44,915 nucleotides of DNA, from IMG/VR virus record IMGVR_UViG_3300033142_001338, positions 1-44,915 of that record; one strand, 5' to 3'. This DNA comes from a virus. Position numbers and translations under genes: made by a program. Under the pieces are notes generated by a model, which was not told where the DNA came from, did no database searches, and worked only from the letters and a program-made list of their open reading frames with translations. Shown piece after piece: positions 2,943-17,951 of this stretch; position 1 is the stretch's first letter; each line of letters opens with the position of its first letter.

Positions 2943-3308
2943 ATGAGTCATAAAACTCTATGCGGAGCAGTTCAATCAAAGCTGTGGGGGCATACCCAAT
3001 GTATTTTTGTTGGCCCTTTTTCCGAGCACCATTATTTAAAAATTAACAAAGGTGGTTATTGTTCAGAGCATTATCATGAACATAAGTGGAACCGATTCTT
3101 TTTAATTAGTGGAAGCTTAAAGGTTATTATCTACAAAGAGAACGGTCAAGATGAAACCGTACTACAGCCAGGAAATTTTACGGATGTTCCTCCTGGTGAA
3201 TATCATAAATTTGAAGCATTAGAAGATTGCGAATGTTTAGAAATTTATTGGACTGACGACCTTAAAACAGACGATATCTCTAGAAGATCAACAGGAGGTA
3301 ATCTTTGA
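2943..3308 (+). CDS. Small cupin-fold protein
   Basis: 121 residues forming one cupin barrel. Metal-ligand candidates are H43, H45 and H47 in the first cupin motif and H88 in the second (DVPPGEYHKF), joined by a turn around SGSLKV. Single-domain cupins in sugar clusters are often mannose-6-phosphate isomerase-like or nucleotide-sugar modifying enzymes. Here it lies between a KpsS-like transferase and a CMP-sugar synthetase, so a role in donor-sugar preparation is likely but unproven. AAAGGG lies 9 bp before the ATG. The stop overlaps the TTG start of the next gene (TTGA). Confidence 0.75.
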   Translation: MSHKTLCGAVQSKLWGHTQCIFVGPFSEHHYLKINKGGYCSEHYHEHKWNRFFLISGSLKVIIYKENGQDETVLQPGNFTDVPPGEYHKFEALEDCECLEIYWTDDLKTDDISRRSTGGNL

Positions 3309-4030
3309 AGAACTACATAATTATTCCTGCTAGAAAAGACAGTAAAAGACTTCCAGGTAAAGCTCTCTTAGAAGAAACTGGAAAGCCTTTATTTGTTCAT
3401 ACTTATGAAAGACTTAAAGTTTTACTTTCTTTTGGTTTAGTTGAGAAAATTTATGTAGCAACTCCTTGCGAAGAAGTTATTTGTGAGGCTGCTAAAAGAA
3501 ATATACCAACAATAAAAACACTTCCATCGCACTGTGGTTCACATGCTGCTATGAGGGCAGCCAAAATAATTAATGAATATTGTAATATTGTAAATGTTCA
3601 AGTTGATTATCCTTTAATTGATCCAGACTTAGTTCGCAGAATAATTACAAGGATTTATGAAACTGACTGTATTACCTCTGCTTATTATAAAACGAGTGAA
3701 AAAGATGCGGCTTTAAATCCTAATAATGTTAAATGCGTCATGAATATTAATAATAATGCGCATTATTTTTCTAGATCTGAAATCCCTTACAATTCAGACG
3801 AATGGAATATACATCTAGGAATTTACGGTTTTCCTTTTTCAAAATGGAGTGGTTTGAAAAATCTTTATATTCATGACAATGATTATCAGTGGTCAAATAA
3901 AGAAAATTTGGAACAGTTGATGTGGTTATACCATGGTTATAAAATTAACATGATTGAATCTAGTCCTTGTTTAGGAGTAGATACAGAGGAAGATTATGAG
4001 CAGTTCAAAAAAAATTATTCTAGTCGGTAA
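3305..4030 (+). CDS. CMP-Kdo / CMP-nonulosonate cytidylyltransferase (KdsB/NeuA-like)
   Basis: Activates an eight- or nine-carbon acid sugar by joining it to CMP from CTP. Residues 1-19 carry the family signature (IIIPARKDSKRLPGK), which binds the CTP phosphates, and a VDYPLIDPD block near 100 resembles the VQxDxPL(I/V)xP element of KdsB. At 241 residues it fits KdsB (about 248) better than many NeuA proteins. The start is TTG with a very good AGGAGGT eight bases upstream, and it overlaps the cupin stop by 4 bp. The end overlaps the next gene by 35 bp. It supplies a CMP-sugar, the donor class used by the GT29-like enzyme that follows. Kdo and sialic/legionaminic-type sugars cannot be told apart by eye. 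Confidence 0.85.
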   Translation: MKNYIIIPARKDSKRLPGKALLEETGKPLFVHTYERLKVLLSFGLVEKIYVATPCEEVICEAAKRNIPTIKTLPSHCGSHAAMRAAKIINEYCNIVNVQVDYPLIDPDLVRRIITRIYETDCITSAYYKTSEKDAALNPNNVKCVMNINNNAHYFSRSEIPYNSDEWNIHLGIYGFPFSKWSGLKNLYIHDNDYQWSNKENLEQLMWLYHGYKINMIESSPCLGVDTEEDYEQFKKNYSSR

Positions 4031-4556
4031 CGGCACAGATGCAGTGTCAAGAGAAGCTGGCGAGCAAATAGATTCTTTTGATGTTGTTGTTCGATTTAAT
4101 AATTTTAAAATTGAGGGGTATGAAAAAAACGTAGGAACAAAAACTGACATCTGGGCTACTAGAATGTGCGATACTATTGATCACACTGGCAAAGATGAAA
4201 ATGATTTTAAAATCATCTCTGTTATGAACTATTGTAAATGGACACGTTACATGTACCCACTAATTCCCAAGTGGTATGATAGATACCCAAATATGGAAAT
4301 TATTCGACCAGAAACAGTAAAACAATATAGCCGTGAATTTGATTACGATCCATTAAAAAATTGGTTGACGGTCGGATATATTATGATAAAATATTTTTTA
4401 GAACAATATGACAAGGTTTATCTATACGGATTTGGTGGTGATGTAAATTCTCATTACCATAATGTAAAACCTGCTGGCCAAGATCATCATAATTTTAAAT
4501 TAGAAGCAGAAAAAATTAAAGAATTGGAAGAAAAAGGAAAGGTCATAAGGATATGA
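3996..4556 (+). CDS. GT29 sialyltransferase-like enzyme
   Basis: 186 residues with a recognisable sialylmotif L: VGNGTDAVSREAGEQIDS at 10-27, then DVVVRFN and VGTKTD (46-51). This is the CMP-sugar-binding region of family GT29 (animal and some bacterial/viral sialyltransferases: VGNxxx..GxxID..D.V.R.N...VG.KT). The C-terminal third (VGYIMIKYFLEQYDKVYLYG, then HYHN and H-N/E-rich residues) corresponds to motifs S/VS. It is shorter than animal enzymes because it lacks a membrane anchor and stem. Translation starts inside the cytidylyltransferase gene, so donor synthesis and transfer are coupled. Transfer of Kdo or a nonulosonic acid to a glycan is the best guess. Confidence 0.8.
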   Translation: MSSSKKIILVGNGTDAVSREAGEQIDSFDVVVRFNNFKIEGYEKNVGTKTDIWATRMCDTIDHTGKDENDFKIISVMNYCKWTRYMYPLIPKWYDRYPNMEIIRPETVKQYSREFDYDPLKNWLTVGYIMIKYFLEQYDKVYLYGFGGDVNSHYHNVKPAGQDHHNFKLEAEKIKELEEKGKVIRI

Positions 4557-12190: not shown

Positions 12191-12664
12191 ATGGACACGG
12201 AACAACAATTAAAGTCTTTATTAAGACATATAGATAATGTTAAAGTAAATTGCATTAAATTGGCGGATATCTTGGTAGATAAAGGAGAAAATGAGTTAGC
12301 TATACAGCTTATAGCCAATGGACACAGGCATGATAATTCAAAGTTTTACGGTATAGAATGGCTTTATCTAAATGATATAACTAAAGAGAAACAGCCAGAC
12401 TTATTTAAATCCGCAGTAACACATCATATAACCACTAATTTGCACCATCCCGAAGCGTGGGCAGGGGGAATCCACGAGATGGATAGGCTTCATCATGCAG
12501 AAATGGTGTGTGATTGGGCAGCACGTTCATCTGAATTTGGAACTGATTTAAGGACATTTTTAAAGGACACTGCTACTAAAAAATTTGAAATGCCTATTCA
12601 ATCAAAGGCATACAGAGAAATAAAAGAATTGGTCGATCTTCTTTTGGACAAGCCTTTTAAGTAG
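12191..12664 (+). CDS. DUF5662 family phage protein
   Basis: 157 residues with the DUF5662 pattern: GHRHDNSKF near 44-52 (HDxSKF), E and Y residues, then THHITTNLHHPEAW (HHxxxNxHHPE) and an MDRLHHAEMVCDW block. The many conserved His and Asp residues suggest a metal-dependent, HD-domain-like hydrolase, though no DUF5662 activity is established to my knowledge. It occurs widely in tailed phages. It starts 2 bp after the previous stop. Confidence 0.75.
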   Translation: MDTEQQLKSLLRHIDNVKVNCIKLADILVDKGENELAIQLIANGHRHDNSKFYGIEWLYLNDITKEKQPDLFKSAVTHHITTNLHHPEAWAGGIHEMDRLHHAEMVCDWAARSSEFGTDLRTFLKDTATKKFEMPIQSKAYREIKELVDLLLDKPFK

Positions 12665-12718: not shown

Positions 12719-13510
12719 ATGATAAGAATTATCTTATTTTTAATATTCTTATTTTCTTGTGTGTCTAATGTTCAAGCTAAAGTATACAATATGAAAGAGA
12801 TGATGAAGGCTGTAGTAAGAATTCAGTCTATTGGTAATTATGGATCTGGGACGATATTTTCAGAAAGTAAAACGGCCTATAAAATTATTACTAATGCCCA
12901 TGTTGTAGGCGAATCATCTCTAGTAAGTATAGATCTTTTCGAAAATGGAAAACATTTTAAACGTGTTAATGGCAAAGTTTTGTGGAAACAATTAGATTCA
13001 AACCGTAGCATTGATCTTGCTATAGTTTCAATCAGTAAGGAAGATTTAGGAGAATATACTCCTAATATAATAGGTTTAGCACCCAGCGATACTGTTATAG
13101 AAAAGGGAAGTCCTGTGTATTCTATGGGATTTCCTCATGCTCGTTGGCCTATGGGATGGTGGGGAGAAATATTGGAGAGTGAAGACACTCTTTATTTTTC
13201 TCCAACTCCTTTCGCAGGGCAAAGTGGTAGTGCCATTTTTGCTAATATCGGCGAAGGTGACGACGTATGCACTAAAATTGTAGGAATCATAGGCTGGAAA
13301 ACCTGGGAAGATAAAATTTTATCATCAGGTAAACTAGGTGGGTATGGAATTGCCATGCATATTTCTGTTCTTTATGATTTAATGGGAGCTGGTAGCGATG
13401 AAACTAATAGACCTAATGTCAAGGCTAGAACAAAGACTGGAGAAATGGGAAGTTGGTATTGGAGAAATCCGCACGGGATTGACATATCTCAAAAAGTATG
13501 GGTACATTGA
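12719..13510 (+). CDS. Exported trypsin/HtrA-like serine protease
   Basis: About 263 residues: a signal peptide (MIRIILFLIFLFSCVSNVQA) then a chymotrypsin-fold protease. The catalytic triad is visible: His60 in TNAHVVG, Asp99 in SIDLAIVSI and Ser169 in AGQSGSAIF. It has no PDZ domain. The ATG at 12719 has GAGG 9 bases upstream and is preferred to the in-frame GTG at 12710, which overlaps that site. The 3' end overlaps the metalloprotease gene by 113 bp in another frame. It leads a run of exported proteins (12719-17951). Targets could be host envelope proteins or the neighbouring pro-metalloprotease. Confidence 0.85.
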   Translation: MIRIILFLIFLFSCVSNVQAKVYNMKEMMKAVVRIQSIGNYGSGTIFSESKTAYKIITNAHVVGESSLVSIDLFENGKHFKRVNGKVLWKQLDSNRSIDLAIVSISKEDLGEYTPNIIGLAPSDTVIEKGSPVYSMGFPHARWPMGWWGEILESEDTLYFSPTPFAGQSGSAIFANIGEGDDVCTKIVGIIGWKTWEDKILSSGKLGGYGIAMHISVLYDLMGAGSDETNRPNVKARTKTGEMGSWYWRNPHGIDISQKVWVH

Positions 13511-14603
13511 AAATATCAGAGAACTTACTCTAGGTGAAGTTCATGACGGTCTTGTTAAACTACAGGGACTAGCTGGTCTTATTACAGACGGCGAACTTGG
13601 CCCTAAAACATTAAGGGTTATGAATACCCCTAGATGTGCCTGTCCAGATTATTATAACGACGGTCACGACTTTGAAGTAGCAAGCATGGAAACCCTTTCT
13701 AATAAATGGGGAAGAAAAAATCTTAGCTATTTTATAGAAAAGCGGGACAACGATCTTTCTGCTCAAGAATGGGACGAGGCTATTGAAAAAGCTTTTACCC
13801 AATGGTCTGACGTAGCTGGTTTAAAATTTACCAGAAGTAATAGTAGAAGTAATGCTAATTTCATTATGTCTATTGGTGCTGGTCGAAGAGATCAGTTTGA
13901 TGGACCTGGAGGCACATTGGCATGGGCTCAGTTACCTCCTGGCAATAGTTTTAATGGACAACTTCTTTGTCGCTTTGATGAAGCAGAAACATGGGTTCTT
14001 AACAGAAACCAACGTGGAGTACTTCTTGTTAACGTAGCCTGCCATGAAATCGGCCATCTTTTAGGTTTGAGACATTCAAATGTTCAGACCGCATTAATGG
14101 CTCCTTTCTATAGTCCTGGTGTAACAAAACCACAATTAAAAGACGATGTTACAAGAATCCAGCGTCTTTACGGTAGACCTACTGGTGGCGGAGATGTCGA
14201 TCCTCCAGAACCTACTCCTCCAGAAAAACTGGCAGCACCCTCGAATTTAGAGGCTACGGCTATTAGTTCTAGTGAAGTTTCACTTTCTTGGGTTGACAAT
14301 TCCACGGGAGAGGATATATTTGAAGTGTATAGGAATAATATATATCAAGGAGGCGTTGGTAGAGGCAGAACATCAGCTACTGACATTAAGGTTCCGCAAG
14401 GAAATCATGTATACAAAATTAGAGCAAAAAAGGGAGACGTTAAGTCTGATTGGTCTAATACAGCCGAAGTAAGTGTTGGAGAGGAAACTGTTCCACCTGA
14501 ACCTGGGCCAGAACCCACGCCAGATGAAGAACTTGTTATTAATATTACTGGCGACATCAAAAACATCAGTATTCCAGGTTACAGGGTAAGTAAAATCGGA
14601 TAA
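13398..14603 (+). CDS. Matrixin (MMP-like) metalloprotease with pro-domain and Fn3
   Basis: 401 residues laid out like a matrix metalloproteinase. A peptidoglycan-binding-like pro-domain (about 27-75) is followed by the cysteine switch PRCACPD at 78-84 (MMPs: PRCGxPD), the zinc site HEIGHLLGLRH at 216-226 (HExxHxxGxxH) and a Met-turn in QTALMAPFYS. Then comes a Pro-rich linker, a fibronectin type III domain (about 280-360) and a short beta tail. The cysteine switch keeps MMPs latent until the pro-domain is cut, and a serine protease is encoded directly upstream. It has no signal peptide of its own and begins inside the protease gene, so either internal initiation or a frameshift fusion is involved. 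Confidence 0.85.
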   Translation: MKLIDLMSRLEQRLEKWEVGIGEIRTGLTYLKKYGYIENIRELTLGEVHDGLVKLQGLAGLITDGELGPKTLRVMNTPRCACPDYYNDGHDFEVASMETLSNKWGRKNLSYFIEKRDNDLSAQEWDEAIEKAFTQWSDVAGLKFTRSNSRSNANFIMSIGAGRRDQFDGPGGTLAWAQLPPGNSFNGQLLCRFDEAETWVLNRNQRGVLLVNVACHEIGHLLGLRHSNVQTALMAPFYSPGVTKPQLKDDVTRIQRLYGRPTGGGDVDPPEPTPPEKLAAPSNLEATAISSSEVSLSWVDNSTGEDIFEVYRNNIYQGGVGRGRTSATDIKVPQGNHVYKIRAKKGDVKSDWSNTAEVSVGEETVPPEPGPEPTPDEELVINITGDIKNISIPGYRVSKIG

Positions 14604-14621: not shown

Positions 14622-16538
14622 ATGATTAAGAAAGCATATTCTGTTCTATTGTTTTCACTGTTCTTTAGTTCGGTGTTACATGCTCAGGATGGACCCAAGT
14701 TAATCAATGAACCTGTAACAGAAGAAGTTATAGAAGTAATTGAATTTGAAAAATTGAAAACTCCTCAATCGGAAGTTGAAGACGCGATTCTATTCCTGTC
14801 TAAGCTTCCGAGCGAGGATGCTCAATTTATTCGATTCTTTTCTACCTATGCAGTACCTGCTGCTCAAAGGGAAGACGAAGTTCTAGTTCTTTCTTTTATT
14901 ATTCATAGTCTTATTGGGATTAGCGATGATCCCGATACTGGCAATGCTGGTGCCTACTATCCTCTTGCTGTACGTGACGACGATGACGTATTTAAGACTT
15001 ATCGTCAAGTGCCAGGAAGTGATACACTCTGGTGGATTGATCTTCGGGAATACAATTGGACCGCCGAAGCTTGGGAAACCATTAGTGACGGCGACGGCTA
15101 TTTTGCTGAACCGATTGTTACTGCTGATCGGAGTGGTGCTCTAAGGCTTCTTGCTGGCAATGCTATTGTGAGATCCGACTGGTTTCTTCATCATGCTATG
15201 AGCACAACTGCTCAACTAGATCTTGGTAAAGATATTAACTTTTACGATACTCTTCTGTACGCCAAGGCTACTAAAGCCCCGTCTACTATTGAAGAGTTTA
15301 GACAAGCATGGGGTTTAGACCTAACAAAAGCCAGAAAACTGGGAAATGAATATGGAACTCTAGTAACAAAAAGCAAGGCTGTTGCTACTCGTAATAGAAT
15401 GCTATTCGGGTATAGAACTGAACTAGGTTATCTTTACGAAACTTATGACGTTAATTTTCAGAATGGTAAGCGTGATTATCTTGAATCAATATTCTTAAAT
15501 AAAAGAATTGGTGGACCGCCAGATGTGTCTGATGCTGGTGAAGTATTTGCTAGTAACATGGTAGGTTTACAGGTATATGCACTTAGAGACGCTGCGGGAG
15601 ATCTTGTAGAATTCGGAGATCCTACTGTAGTCAGGCATATGGAAGACGTTCTCAGCGATCCTCGTGTAAGGGTTGCACACTCATGTTTGGATTGTCATGC
15701 ATCTGGACCTATTCCTTCTGAAAATACATTAGACGAATTTATTAGAGCAAATGCCAACTTAAAAACATATGATAAAGCTGATGCTCTTAGAATAAACAGA
15801 ACTTTACTTTCTGATAAATTTGAAGACTCTATTGCAGATAATCAGGTCTTATTTGCTAGAGCTGTTAAGAAAACTAATGGCCTTACTCCTACGGCAAATG
15901 GGTCAAAATATCTACAAAGAATTATTAGATACAACAGGTCAATTAATTTGGAGATTGCTGCATATGAATGTGGAACTACTCCAGAAGAATTAAGAACAAA
16001 GATCATGGAATCTCAATATAGATTTGGTGCTCGTTTGAAGTTGTTAGTAACAACTGGAGAATTGATTCCTAGAGATGTTTGGGAAGCACCAAGTGTAGAT
16101 GGAATTCCAGGTGGATTTCAGCAGGCCATGATTATGTTAAACGGCCTGACTATTGTGGAAGAAGAAGATCCAGGGATTCAAGTCCCAGTAGAAGAAGTTA
16201 TTATACAGGACGAAGTAGTGGAAGCTCCTCCTATTATTCAAGAAGTTGAAGAAGTTACTAATCCGCTTCGTGACCAAATTACTATACTTCAAGTAAGCTC
16301 ACAAAATGCAGAACTAAAAGCTGGGACAACGACTTTATTAACTCCTGCTGTTGGTTATCGTCTCTTCCCAACGGGTGAAGTTAGTGGTAGCTGGATTCAA
16401 GTTTACGCTATGGACGGGAAACTAGGGTATATCAAAGATACGATGGTCGAAGAAATCTCTGTGGATGTCCGAGAAGTAGAGGGAGATTTTAGCAGTCTAT
16501 CAAAAGAAAAATTAGAAGAGCTTATTAATAAAGAATAA
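14622..16538 (+). CDS. Exported c-type haem protein with SH3 tail
   Basis: 638 residues: signal peptide (KKAYSVLLFSLFFSSVLHAQ), a long alpha/beta region (about 45-330) without a family I recognise, a haem-attachment motif CLDCH at 355-359, a helical part, a Pro/Glu/Ile-Val linker (about 505-545), and a C-terminal SH3-like barrel (about 555-625, ending GKLGYIKDTMVEE). CxxCH covalently binds haem c outside the cytoplasm if host cytochrome maturation is present. Large CxxCH proteins with SH3 ends are frequent in Planctomycetes-type secretomes. Phage-encoded ones are very unusual. GAGGAAAG precedes the ATG. Confidence 0.75.
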   Translation: MIKKAYSVLLFSLFFSSVLHAQDGPKLINEPVTEEVIEVIEFEKLKTPQSEVEDAILFLSKLPSEDAQFIRFFSTYAVPAAQREDEVLVLSFIIHSLIGISDDPDTGNAGAYYPLAVRDDDDVFKTYRQVPGSDTLWWIDLREYNWTAEAWETISDGDGYFAEPIVTADRSGALRLLAGNAIVRSDWFLHHAMSTTAQLDLGKDINFYDTLLYAKATKAPSTIEEFRQAWGLDLTKARKLGNEYGTLVTKSKAVATRNRMLFGYRTELGYLYETYDVNFQNGKRDYLESIFLNKRIGGPPDVSDAGEVFASNMVGLQVYALRDAAGDLVEFGDPTVVRHMEDVLSDPRVRVAHSCLDCHASGPIPSENTLDEFIRANANLKTYDKADALRINRTLLSDKFEDSIADNQVLFARAVKKTNGLTPTANGSKYLQRIIRYNRSINLEIAAYECGTTPEELRTKIMESQYRFGARLKLLVTTGELIPRDVWEAPSVDGIPGGFQQAMIMLNGLTIVEEEDPGIQVPVEEVIIQDEVVEAPPIIQEVEEVTNPLRDQITILQVSSQNAELKAGTTTLLTPAVGYRLFPTGEVSGSWIQVYAMDGKLGYIKDTMVEEISVDVREVEGDFSSLSKEKLEELINKE

Positions 16539-16703: not shown

Positions 16704-17459
16704 ATGATTAAGAAAATTTTCTGCATATTCCTGGCAATTTGGACAGCCAGTAGTTCTCCTATTTTTGCTGGCGGTTTTAAAGGACGAAAAATCGTCTGTC
16801 AGCCAATAGTTAAGCAACAAATTATTCAAGATCACGTTGTTCAACAATTTAACGTTGTTGAAAATGTGGATGTAATTCAAAAGCAAGTTCAATTTGATGC
16901 TGATTATTTTCTAGGTATGAATGGTTATTATGATGTAGTTAATCAGTTGCAAGCCCAAGAGATTAATGCTGACAAAGATATAATCTTAAAGCAATCAGAA
17001 CAAGTGGACAGACTGATTAGACTTCTAGAAGAAAGCTTATTAAAAAATTCTACAAGTAATGCAAGTAATGATTCTCAACCAACCCAAGAAGAGCCAGTAG
17101 AAGAGCCACAGGACGATACAACAACGGTTGAGTCGACAGAAACAGACGGAATAGTCCAATTGAATCAAAAGGTTTTTACTATTTTCTCTGAGAATTGTTC
17201 TTCTTGTCATGGTCAATCTTCTCAAAAGGCTGGTTTGCAATTAGTAGGCGAAGAAGAAAACGGGGAGAAATGGTTGGCGGACCTCCCTTTGTCAGACAGA
17301 GTTTCTACTTATGATCATGTCGCTGGAATTAATCTTCAAGCAAGAGGTAAAAAGTTAATGCCTTTGGGCGGTCCAGCCCTTGCCGATGAAGATGTTGAAG
17401 CTATTCGTCTTTGGATGGTAGCAAAAACTGAGGAAAATAAGGAAGCGGTTGCTCAATAA
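16704..17459 (+). CDS. Exported cytochrome c-domain protein with VQ-rich N-terminus
   Basis: 251 residues: signal peptide (MIKKIFCIFLAIWTASSSPI, cleaved near AGG), a Val/Gln-rich region (IVKQQIIQDHVVQQFNVVEN) from about 35 to 65, a helical/acidic spacer, and a compact C-terminal cytochrome c domain. Haem ligands are C165, C168 and H169 (CSSCHG) and probably M219 in KKLMPLGGP. The sequence after CxxCH (QSSQKAGLQL) is like the planctomycete cytochrome domain ('...GGLRL'). It would carry or transfer electrons in the periplasm if matured. The VKQQ(I/V)(I/V)Q core is shared with the next gene, suggesting an exchanged domain. Confidence 0.8.
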   Translation: MIKKIFCIFLAIWTASSSPIFAGGFKGRKIVCQPIVKQQIIQDHVVQQFNVVENVDVIQKQVQFDADYFLGMNGYYDVVNQLQAQEINADKDIILKQSEQVDRLIRLLEESLLKNSTSNASNDSQPTQEEPVEEPQDDTTTVESTETDGIVQLNQKVFTIFSENCSSCHGQSSQKAGLQLVGEEENGEKWLADLPLSDRVSTYDHVAGINLQARGKKLMPLGGPALADEDVEAIRLWMVAKTEENKEAVAQ

Positions 17460-17498: not shown

Positions 17499-17951
17499 AT
17501 GAAAACCAAACTCGCTATTTTTACCGCTTTTGTTGTGGGTGCAATCGCCGCCTGCATGATTATGCCCTCAGAAGCTGAGGCAACTGGCGGACTTTTTTCA
17601 CGTAGAAGAGTTGTTCAACGACAAAGAGTCGTAGTTCGGCCCCAAGTTCAACGAGTTGTCAAACAGCAAGTCGTTCAACAGAATAAGGTTGTCGAAAGAG
17701 TTATTGTTAATAACGGTCATTATGGTTATGGCGGACAACAGATTATCCAGAGAAATGTTATCGCCGTTCCTCAAAGAACCCTTAGAATTGTAGAAGTACC
17801 ACAAGTACAGCTTCAAAGAAGTTATGTAATTCAAAGAAATCAGGTCGGCAATGTTCTTAACGTTCAACGTAGAAATGTTGTCGAAGTACAAAAACAAAAA
17901 GTTCGCGGTAATAAAATTATTGTCGAACAAAACGTAATTAGAGGTTACTAA
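17499..17951 (+). CDS. Exported Val/Gln/Arg-rich repeat protein
   Basis: 150 residues: signal peptide (KLAIFTAFVVGAIAACMIM..., cleavage near AEA), then almost entirely V-Q-R-x repeats such as RVVKQQVVQQNKVVERVIV, with a short GHYGYGG patch. Alternating hydrophobic and polar residues predict long beta strands, possibly an amyloid-like or solenoid surface protein. It shares the VKQQ core with the upstream cytochrome protein. CAAGGTTAAT precedes the ATG. No catalytic residues visible. The low complexity makes homology searches unreliable. Confidence 0.7.
   Translation: MKTKLAIFTAFVVGAIAACMIMPSEAEATGGLFSRRRVVQRQRVVVRPQVQRVVKQQVVQQNKVVERVIVNNGHYGYGGQQIIQRNVIAVPQRTLRIVEVPQVQLQRSYVIQRNQVGNVLNVQRRNVVEVQKQKVRGNKIIVEQNVIRGY

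Follow-up and report, generated by a model that had tools for sequence, protein, structure and literature searches.

The phage sequence analyzed here carries, in overlapping genes, a secreted serine protease and a matrixin that, judged by its sequence and predicted fold, is a pro-MMP in architecture. Comparison with related loci shows the two to be separately translated as far as gene structure can tell, the overlap being made by a C-terminal extension of the protease. On balance, we lean toward an account in which the matrixin would be a late, non-exported zymogen that leaves with the virion or at lysis, is activated outside, and cuts host envelope proteins. The sequence, referred to as the window, is the whole of IMG/VR virus record IMGVR_UViG_3300033142_001338 (44,915 bases). 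Its genes include a UvsX-like recombinase, PhoH, a ribonucleotide reductase, a dUTPase, and a sigma factor, and it is therefore probably a piece of a larger phage genome. The features of interest are:

12191–12664, plus strand: DUF5662 protein, an upstream neighbor kept in loci L003 and L004 (Pfam, locus comparison)
12719–13510, plus strand: secreted chymotrypsin-fold serine protease (Trypsin_2), 263 aa (Pfam profile, alignment, hydropathy)
13385–13388, plus strand: GGAG, a Shine-Dalgarno (SD)-like site inside the protease gene, 9 nt before ATG 13398 (anti-SD match)
13398–13510, plus strand: overlap of the protease and matrixin genes, 113 bp (+1 relation)
13398–14603, plus strand: matrixin (M10A-type), a predicted zymogen of 401 aa with its own ATG at 13398 and no signal peptide (profiles, fold, alignment)
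13629–13649, plus strand: cysteine switch PRCACPD, of the C-x-C form (sequence, alignment)
14043–14075, plus strand: zinc site HEIGHLLGLRH (sequence, alignment)
14091–14105, plus strand: Met-turn ALMAP (sequence, alignment)
14229–14480, plus strand: Fn3-like all-beta domain, limits approximate (weak profile, predicted structure)
14622–16538, plus strand: c638, a secreted protein with one CxxCH (15684–15698) and no known fold (alignment, locus comparison, fold search)
16704–17459, plus strand: secreted c-type cytochrome with a match to PSCyt1 (Planctomycete cytochrome C) (profile)
17499–17951, plus strand: secreted VQ-rich protein of the same cassette (locus comparison)

Translation of the overlapping genes

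The reading frames of the protease (12719–13510) and the matrixin (13398–14603) are frames 2 and 0 modulo 3, which puts the matrixin at +1, and the matrixin frame is closed upstream by a TAA at 13380. The overlap of the two ORFs is real; an earlier, sequence-only reading of the window had given these coordinates, the 113-bp overlap, and the +1 frame, and ORF positions and frames confirm them. Locus L004 has the same six-gene order as the window (DUF5662, protease, matrixin, c638, cytochrome, and VQ protein), with protease, matrixin, and c638 being 54–60% identical between the two. Its protease aligns with that of the window until the conserved core ends, and then stops at a TAG (2549–2551), a single base before the matrixin ATG at 2553, upstream of which a GGAG is also found. 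In the window, the homologous core ends near 13388, and beyond it lies a C-terminal extension that is absent from L004.

The internal start at 13398, which the sequence-only reading had offered as the alternative to a frameshift, is borne out by the GGAG site and by an N-terminus homologous to that of L004. Matrixin residues 3–27, all of which lie within the overlap, score 28 (BLOSUM62) against the L004 N-terminus, a value reached by none of 5000 shuffles (mean −21.9). Differences between the window and L004 at the three matrixin codon positions number 8, 4, and 13 in codons 13–27, and 8, 5, and 3 in codons 3–12, where there is no third-position excess. Anti-SD matches of at least 4 nt are found for 34 of the 47 window genes, compared with about 16% of 1011 other ATGs. 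Two other candidate starts, ATG 13416 and TTG 13479, were rejected; neither has a 3-nt anti-SD match, and homology with L004 extends upstream of both.

The overlap could also be a sequence or assembly indel, with the protease really ending just before the matrixin as it does in L004, which we consider rather unlikely. Agreement with L004 is clean until the final codons of the protease core, which is precisely where the two sequences part, and an out-of-frame TAG is found at 13393. However, an open run of at least 36 codons in the offset frame, as would have to follow such an error, has a chance probability of about 0.013, the protease frame of the overlap scores higher for coding-like whole-codon usage (0.36/0.31 per codon) than the matrixin frame does (0.02/0.27), and there is no long homopolymer at the junction, which is known from a single contig. 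Given the coding-like codons and the open run, the extension is probably genuine coding sequence, shared by the matrixin N-terminus. With amino-acid composition corrected for, 18% of off-frame windows reach the value of the protease frame, and the matrixin frame ranks at percentile 3.3 among coding windows. The weaker coding signal of the matrixin frame in the whole-codon comparison, like the missing third-position excess in codons 3–12, speaks against our favored account.

A programmed +1 frameshift that fuses the two proteins into one exported pro-polyprotein, as the sequence-only reading had proposed, is highly improbable. It would be in keeping with the +1 relation common to the window and L004, with the long open overlap (P about 0.013), and with the export of the protease, but the in-frame stop in L004 precedes the matrixin ATG, L003 carries DUF5662, then the matrixin, then c638, with no protease, and in L031 a 71-aa ORF separates the secreted protease from an exported matrixin, which a 117-aa ORF in turn separates from one with a prodomain. 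We reject the polyprotein on these three loci. In a programmed +1 frameshift gene, the absence of a separate stop and start between the frames would be conserved; L004 has both, and the window matrixin has its own ATG with an SD-like site, behind which the N-terminus encoded in the overlap is conserved with a free-standing one. Moreover, no stimulatory RNA fold was found (z −0.46), and no classical +1 site was recognized by eye among the overlap codons. Nor does the matrixin need a frameshift to rescue its export, since the lack of a hydrophobic N-terminus across its lineage (see below) makes the absence of a signal peptide a rule of the lineage.

Architecture of the matrixin

The matrixin matches Peptidase_M10 (PF00413) with 127.7 bits (E 4.8e-37; Pfam cut-off 24). 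Its predicted structure has a mean pLDDT of 78.9, N-terminal helix included, and the nearest solved structure is proMMP-1 (1su3, E 1.1e-15), with proMMP-9, proMMP-3, and MMP-13 among the next. By sequence, it matches proMMP-9 with an E-value of 1e-32 in an alignment that begins in the prodomain. Both the HExxHxxGxxH catalytic domain with its Met-turn and a prodomain with a PRCGxPD-type cysteine switch, here PRCACPD, are present, as expected of M10A. A signal peptide is usual in animal MMPs. It is absent here, the peak 10-residue hydropathy being 0.71 compared with 2.16–3.29 in Sec-type exported controls, and it is also absent from the Paenibacillus matrixins L111 and L112, for which reason we do not take it as defining the family. 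The assignment to trypsin-like and MMP-like families (both Pfam matches lie above their cut-offs), the zymogen architecture of prodomain, switch, and zinc site, and the missing signal peptide had all been put forward by the sequence-only reading and are upheld. For the Fn3 domain that it also named, the profile match is weak (13.9 bits; cut-off 25), but residues of about 282–360 are predicted with confidence as an all-beta domain.

The lineage of phage prodomain matrixins

A viral scan with the whole matrixin gave no matches, nor did a search at E ≤ 1e-5 in 50,697 phage records. In the virus collection, a 55-aa zinc-site query retrieved 8 loci, and an alignment of five matrixins used as query retrieved 31, several of which are contigs of the 55-aa query or near-duplicates. 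A third scan with the patterns [GS]GTLAWA[YFQ] and [MC]RFDxxE[TR]W gave 22 loci, corresponding to 20 contigs already found and two new ones (L122 and L130), so that at this sensitivity the lineage in IMG/VR, about two dozen contigs of up to 408 kb, looks close to exhausted. The suggestion that matrixins are rare in phages thus stands for the phage records searched, but IMG/VR holds a whole lineage. Our searches of open-licence papers turned up no account of phage matrixins with a prodomain.

Nineteen phage prodomain rows were aligned, with near-identical pairs such as L016/L018 among them and L020, L024, L033, and L130 left out. No row departs from R79, from the switch cysteine C80, or from H216, E217, H220, and H226 of the zinc site, and D84 is nearly invariant. 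A second cysteine two residues past the switch cysteine (C-x-C) is present in 15 of these rows, the exceptions being L003, L026, L031, and L037. The switch reads PRCACPD in the window, PRCSCPD in L004, and PRCGCPD in most others, including the newly found L130. We do not count the conserved Cys215 before HExxH as evidence, because ACHE was part of a search pattern; the C-x-C switch was part of none.

Among 18 phage prodomain matrixins (L026 is left out because its start is uncertain), peak N-terminal hydropathy is at most 1.68 in 17, and 24 other window genes span 0.10–1.76. The remaining one, L005, reaches 1.94, above the range of those genes. Matrixins without a full prodomain (L006–L008, L029, L031a, L038, and L039) have an N-terminus that is RR-type (Tat-like by eye), Sec-like, or membrane-type, with values of 1.77–1.92 in L006, L007, and L029 that overlap L005. 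A full prodomain and an export signal thus tend to be mutually exclusive across the matrixins, as judged from their N-termini, and this is our main ground for proposing a latch that would keep the enzyme quiet in the cytoplasm. The first matrixin of L122 fits poorly, as it has the switch, but neither the helical prodomain nor a clear signal. In two contigs, a pair of matrixins lies close together (L122, 2923–4731; L031, 4303–6771), one having a switch and lacking an export signal, the other having an export-type N-terminus.

The serine protease and neighboring genes

The protease combines a fold profile (Trypsin_2, PF13365, 35.1 bits, E 2.6e-8; Pfam cut-off 27.6) with a His/Asp/Ser triad (H61/D99/S169, preserved in the L004 homologue), consistent with a chymotrypsin-fold enzyme of S1 type, and its N-terminal hydropathy peak of 3.25 falls in the Sec-type exported range. 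Trypsin specificity depends on an Asp in the S1 pocket, six residues before the catalytic Ser. The protease has Thr at this position, and cleavage after Lys or Arg is therefore not to be assumed. Exfoliative toxin B was considered as a relative and set aside, the match being weak (E 0.019) and the resemblance at fold level. A viral scan with the whole protease gave no matches, and a close relative of it was found in L004 only.

Trypsin_2 matches lie above the cut-off in four of 28 virus records, and in six of 28 at E ≤ 0.001. Those in G002 (L004), G022 (L029), and G023 (L031) are all within 1–2 kb of a matrixin, and that in G001 is within about 2 kb of c638, in the order c638, cytochrome, VQ-rich protein, and protease; weaker matches in G001, G008, and G009 are located elsewhere. 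By these profile matches, a trypsin-like protease is an optional but recurrent neighbor of phage matrixins.

In 12 loci (L016–L026 and L033; several near-duplicates, one clade), a Baseplate_J homologue lies 1–47 nt upstream of the matrixin. The family (PF04865) was matched with 44.2 bits in L022 and 35.2 bits in L025, the L022 gene also matching the PHROG baseplate wedge (E 6e-21), and the other ten loci are tied to it by phmmer only. This adjacency points to a tail operon, on the basis of one set of related phages; no baseplate gene lies next to the window matrixin.

Besides Baseplate_J, the most frequent matrixin neighbor is c638, found near the matrixin in the window and in L003, L004, L005, L010/L035, L025, L026/L033, L028, L036, L038, L039, and L040. 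By coordinates, it is the next gene after the matrixin in 10 of these 12 (for L010, L026, and L036, the true start is taken to lie past the matrixin). The protein query finds it in 11 of the 28 virus records and a profile adds G001 and G008, giving 13; in G001, G008, and G009 it is far from the matrixin, and in L010 and L038–L040 it stands beside matrixins without a switch, a point against the favored account. All 12 aligned members have the CxxCH heme motif. The members given to Pfam and NCBIfam matched no cytochrome profile, and a PDB fold search with a moderately confident model (mean pLDDT 64.9) found no fold (best E 0.16). The adjoining cytochrome has a homologue in L004, and a similar secreted CxxCH protein lies next to c638 in a 408-kb contig (L058). 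Elsewhere, the window encodes a secreted CAP/SCP-domain protein (25090–25575; PF00188, E 1.2e-19) and, at 3305–4030, 3996–4556, and 22677–23807, genes that by eye are of nucleotide-sugar or glycan type and a dehydrogenase family match (phrog_9582, E 1.4e-104).

Host

The window cytochrome matches PSCyt1 with 24.2 bits (cut-off 22). A genome scan gave one match, in Limnoglobus roseus (Planctomycetota), with gene spacing and E-values identical to those of IMG/VR record L035, which is therefore probably a prophage of this species. In a tree whose deep forks are weak, the Limnoglobus roseus matrixin falls among the phage rows, and the planctomycete-genome rows L073 and L082, on long branches, fall inside the phage set. 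Of 246 genomes from the Limnoglobus phylum, 33 encode some matrixin at E ≤ 1e-10, in most cases lacking the prodomain part. Our best guess from these comparisons is that the host of the lineage belongs to Planctomycetota. The c638 family also occurs in six of the 246 genomes.

Proposed mechanism

For the matrixin, we infer latency, exit route, activation, substrate, and host as follows. Judged by gene structure, the serine protease is exported by its own signal peptide and ends at 13510, and matrixin translation begins at ATG 13398, with a ribosome site that lies within the last part of the protease gene; the C-terminal extension of this phage's protease gave rise to the overlap. In the reducing cytoplasm, C80 would occupy the zinc and block early digestion of phage and host proteins. 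The matrixin would exit with the virion, on the tail, or at lysis. Outside, the grip of the prodomain would be lost by a cut in the exposed linker, made by the matrixin itself, a host protease, or the neighboring exported serine protease, or alternatively by oxidation of the C-x-C switch, and the freed enzyme would cut proteins of the host envelope, probably that of a planctomycete. Once the cell has lysed, the serine protease may act in trans on the matrixin: in the 28 records, each of the four Trypsin_2 matches above the cut-off has a matrixin or the c638 cluster nearby.

A possible but less likely reading is that the matrixin is released at lysis only, is not on the virion, and weakens the host envelope together with the exported c638 and serine protease, like the Listeria metzincin/TIMP-like pair; this is a sub-case of the favored account, and our confidences in the two overlap. 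The pairing of a protease with a secreted partner recurs, the Listeria pair is a precedent as far as the accessible part of its description goes (PMC8235301), and in L031 a homologue of a weakly C92-like window protein precedes the protease. However, the 12 loci with Baseplate_J adjacency speak for the tail, and the likeness to the Listeria pair is drawn by analogy. It is unlikely that the prodomain is mainly a peptidoglycan-binding module, which would make the protein a wall-targeted lysis or virion enzyme and not a regulated zymogen. The prodomain does share the PG_binding_1 fold, with E-values of 2e-3 in the window, below the cut-off of that profile, and 5.7e-6 in L026, but R79 and C80 are invariant in all 19 rows, with D84 nearly so, and proMMPs top the structure search. 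Somewhat more doubtful is a virion-borne, redox-gated MMP whose C-x-C switch is shut when reduced and opens outside through a C80–C82 disulfide, with the CxxCH protein as redox partner. If true, tailed phages would be using an animal-type zymogen design to carry an armed protease to a cell envelope rich in protein.

Relation to known systems

Animal MMPs are textbook zymogens. The window matrixin shares with animal pro-MMPs (M10A; proMMP-1, -3, and -9, its best PDB matches) the helical prodomain, cysteine switch, HExxHxxGxxH, and Met-turn, but differs in having no signal peptide, no hemopexin domain that we could find, and a second switch cysteine (PRCACPD, compared with PRCGVPD in the proMMP-9 alignment), and in being phage-encoded. 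Karilysin of Tannerella, which has a short propeptide, matches its catalytic domain (E 6e-26). The Paenibacillus plasmid prodomain matrixins L111 and L112 likewise have a switch and lack an obvious signal peptide, but their switches (PRCGLPD and DRCGQPD) are not C-x-C. The "Zn-dependent protease" of Lactobacillus phage 3-521 (MK504444) has a matrixin-like catalytic domain (E 0.01), but a hydrophobic N-terminus and, by eye, no prodomain switch. In Listeria, according to the accessible part of PMC8235301, a metzincin of phage origin, Mtz, adjoins the gene of an exported TIMP-like partner, Tim; Mtz, unlike the window matrixin, has a signal peptide, and its partner is a lipoprotein, whereas here it is mostly a CxxCH protein.

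A phage lineage with a full prodomain and switch, no export signal, and, in one clade, baseplate adjacency would be a second setting for the latch. In the accessible text of a recent paper on MMP transfer (PMC12587646), no words starting with "phage" or "virus" occur, and "viral" occurs in the reference list alone. Phage matrixins may bear on the movement of MMPs between animals and microbes, and they are a candidate means for phages to cross a protein-rich envelope.
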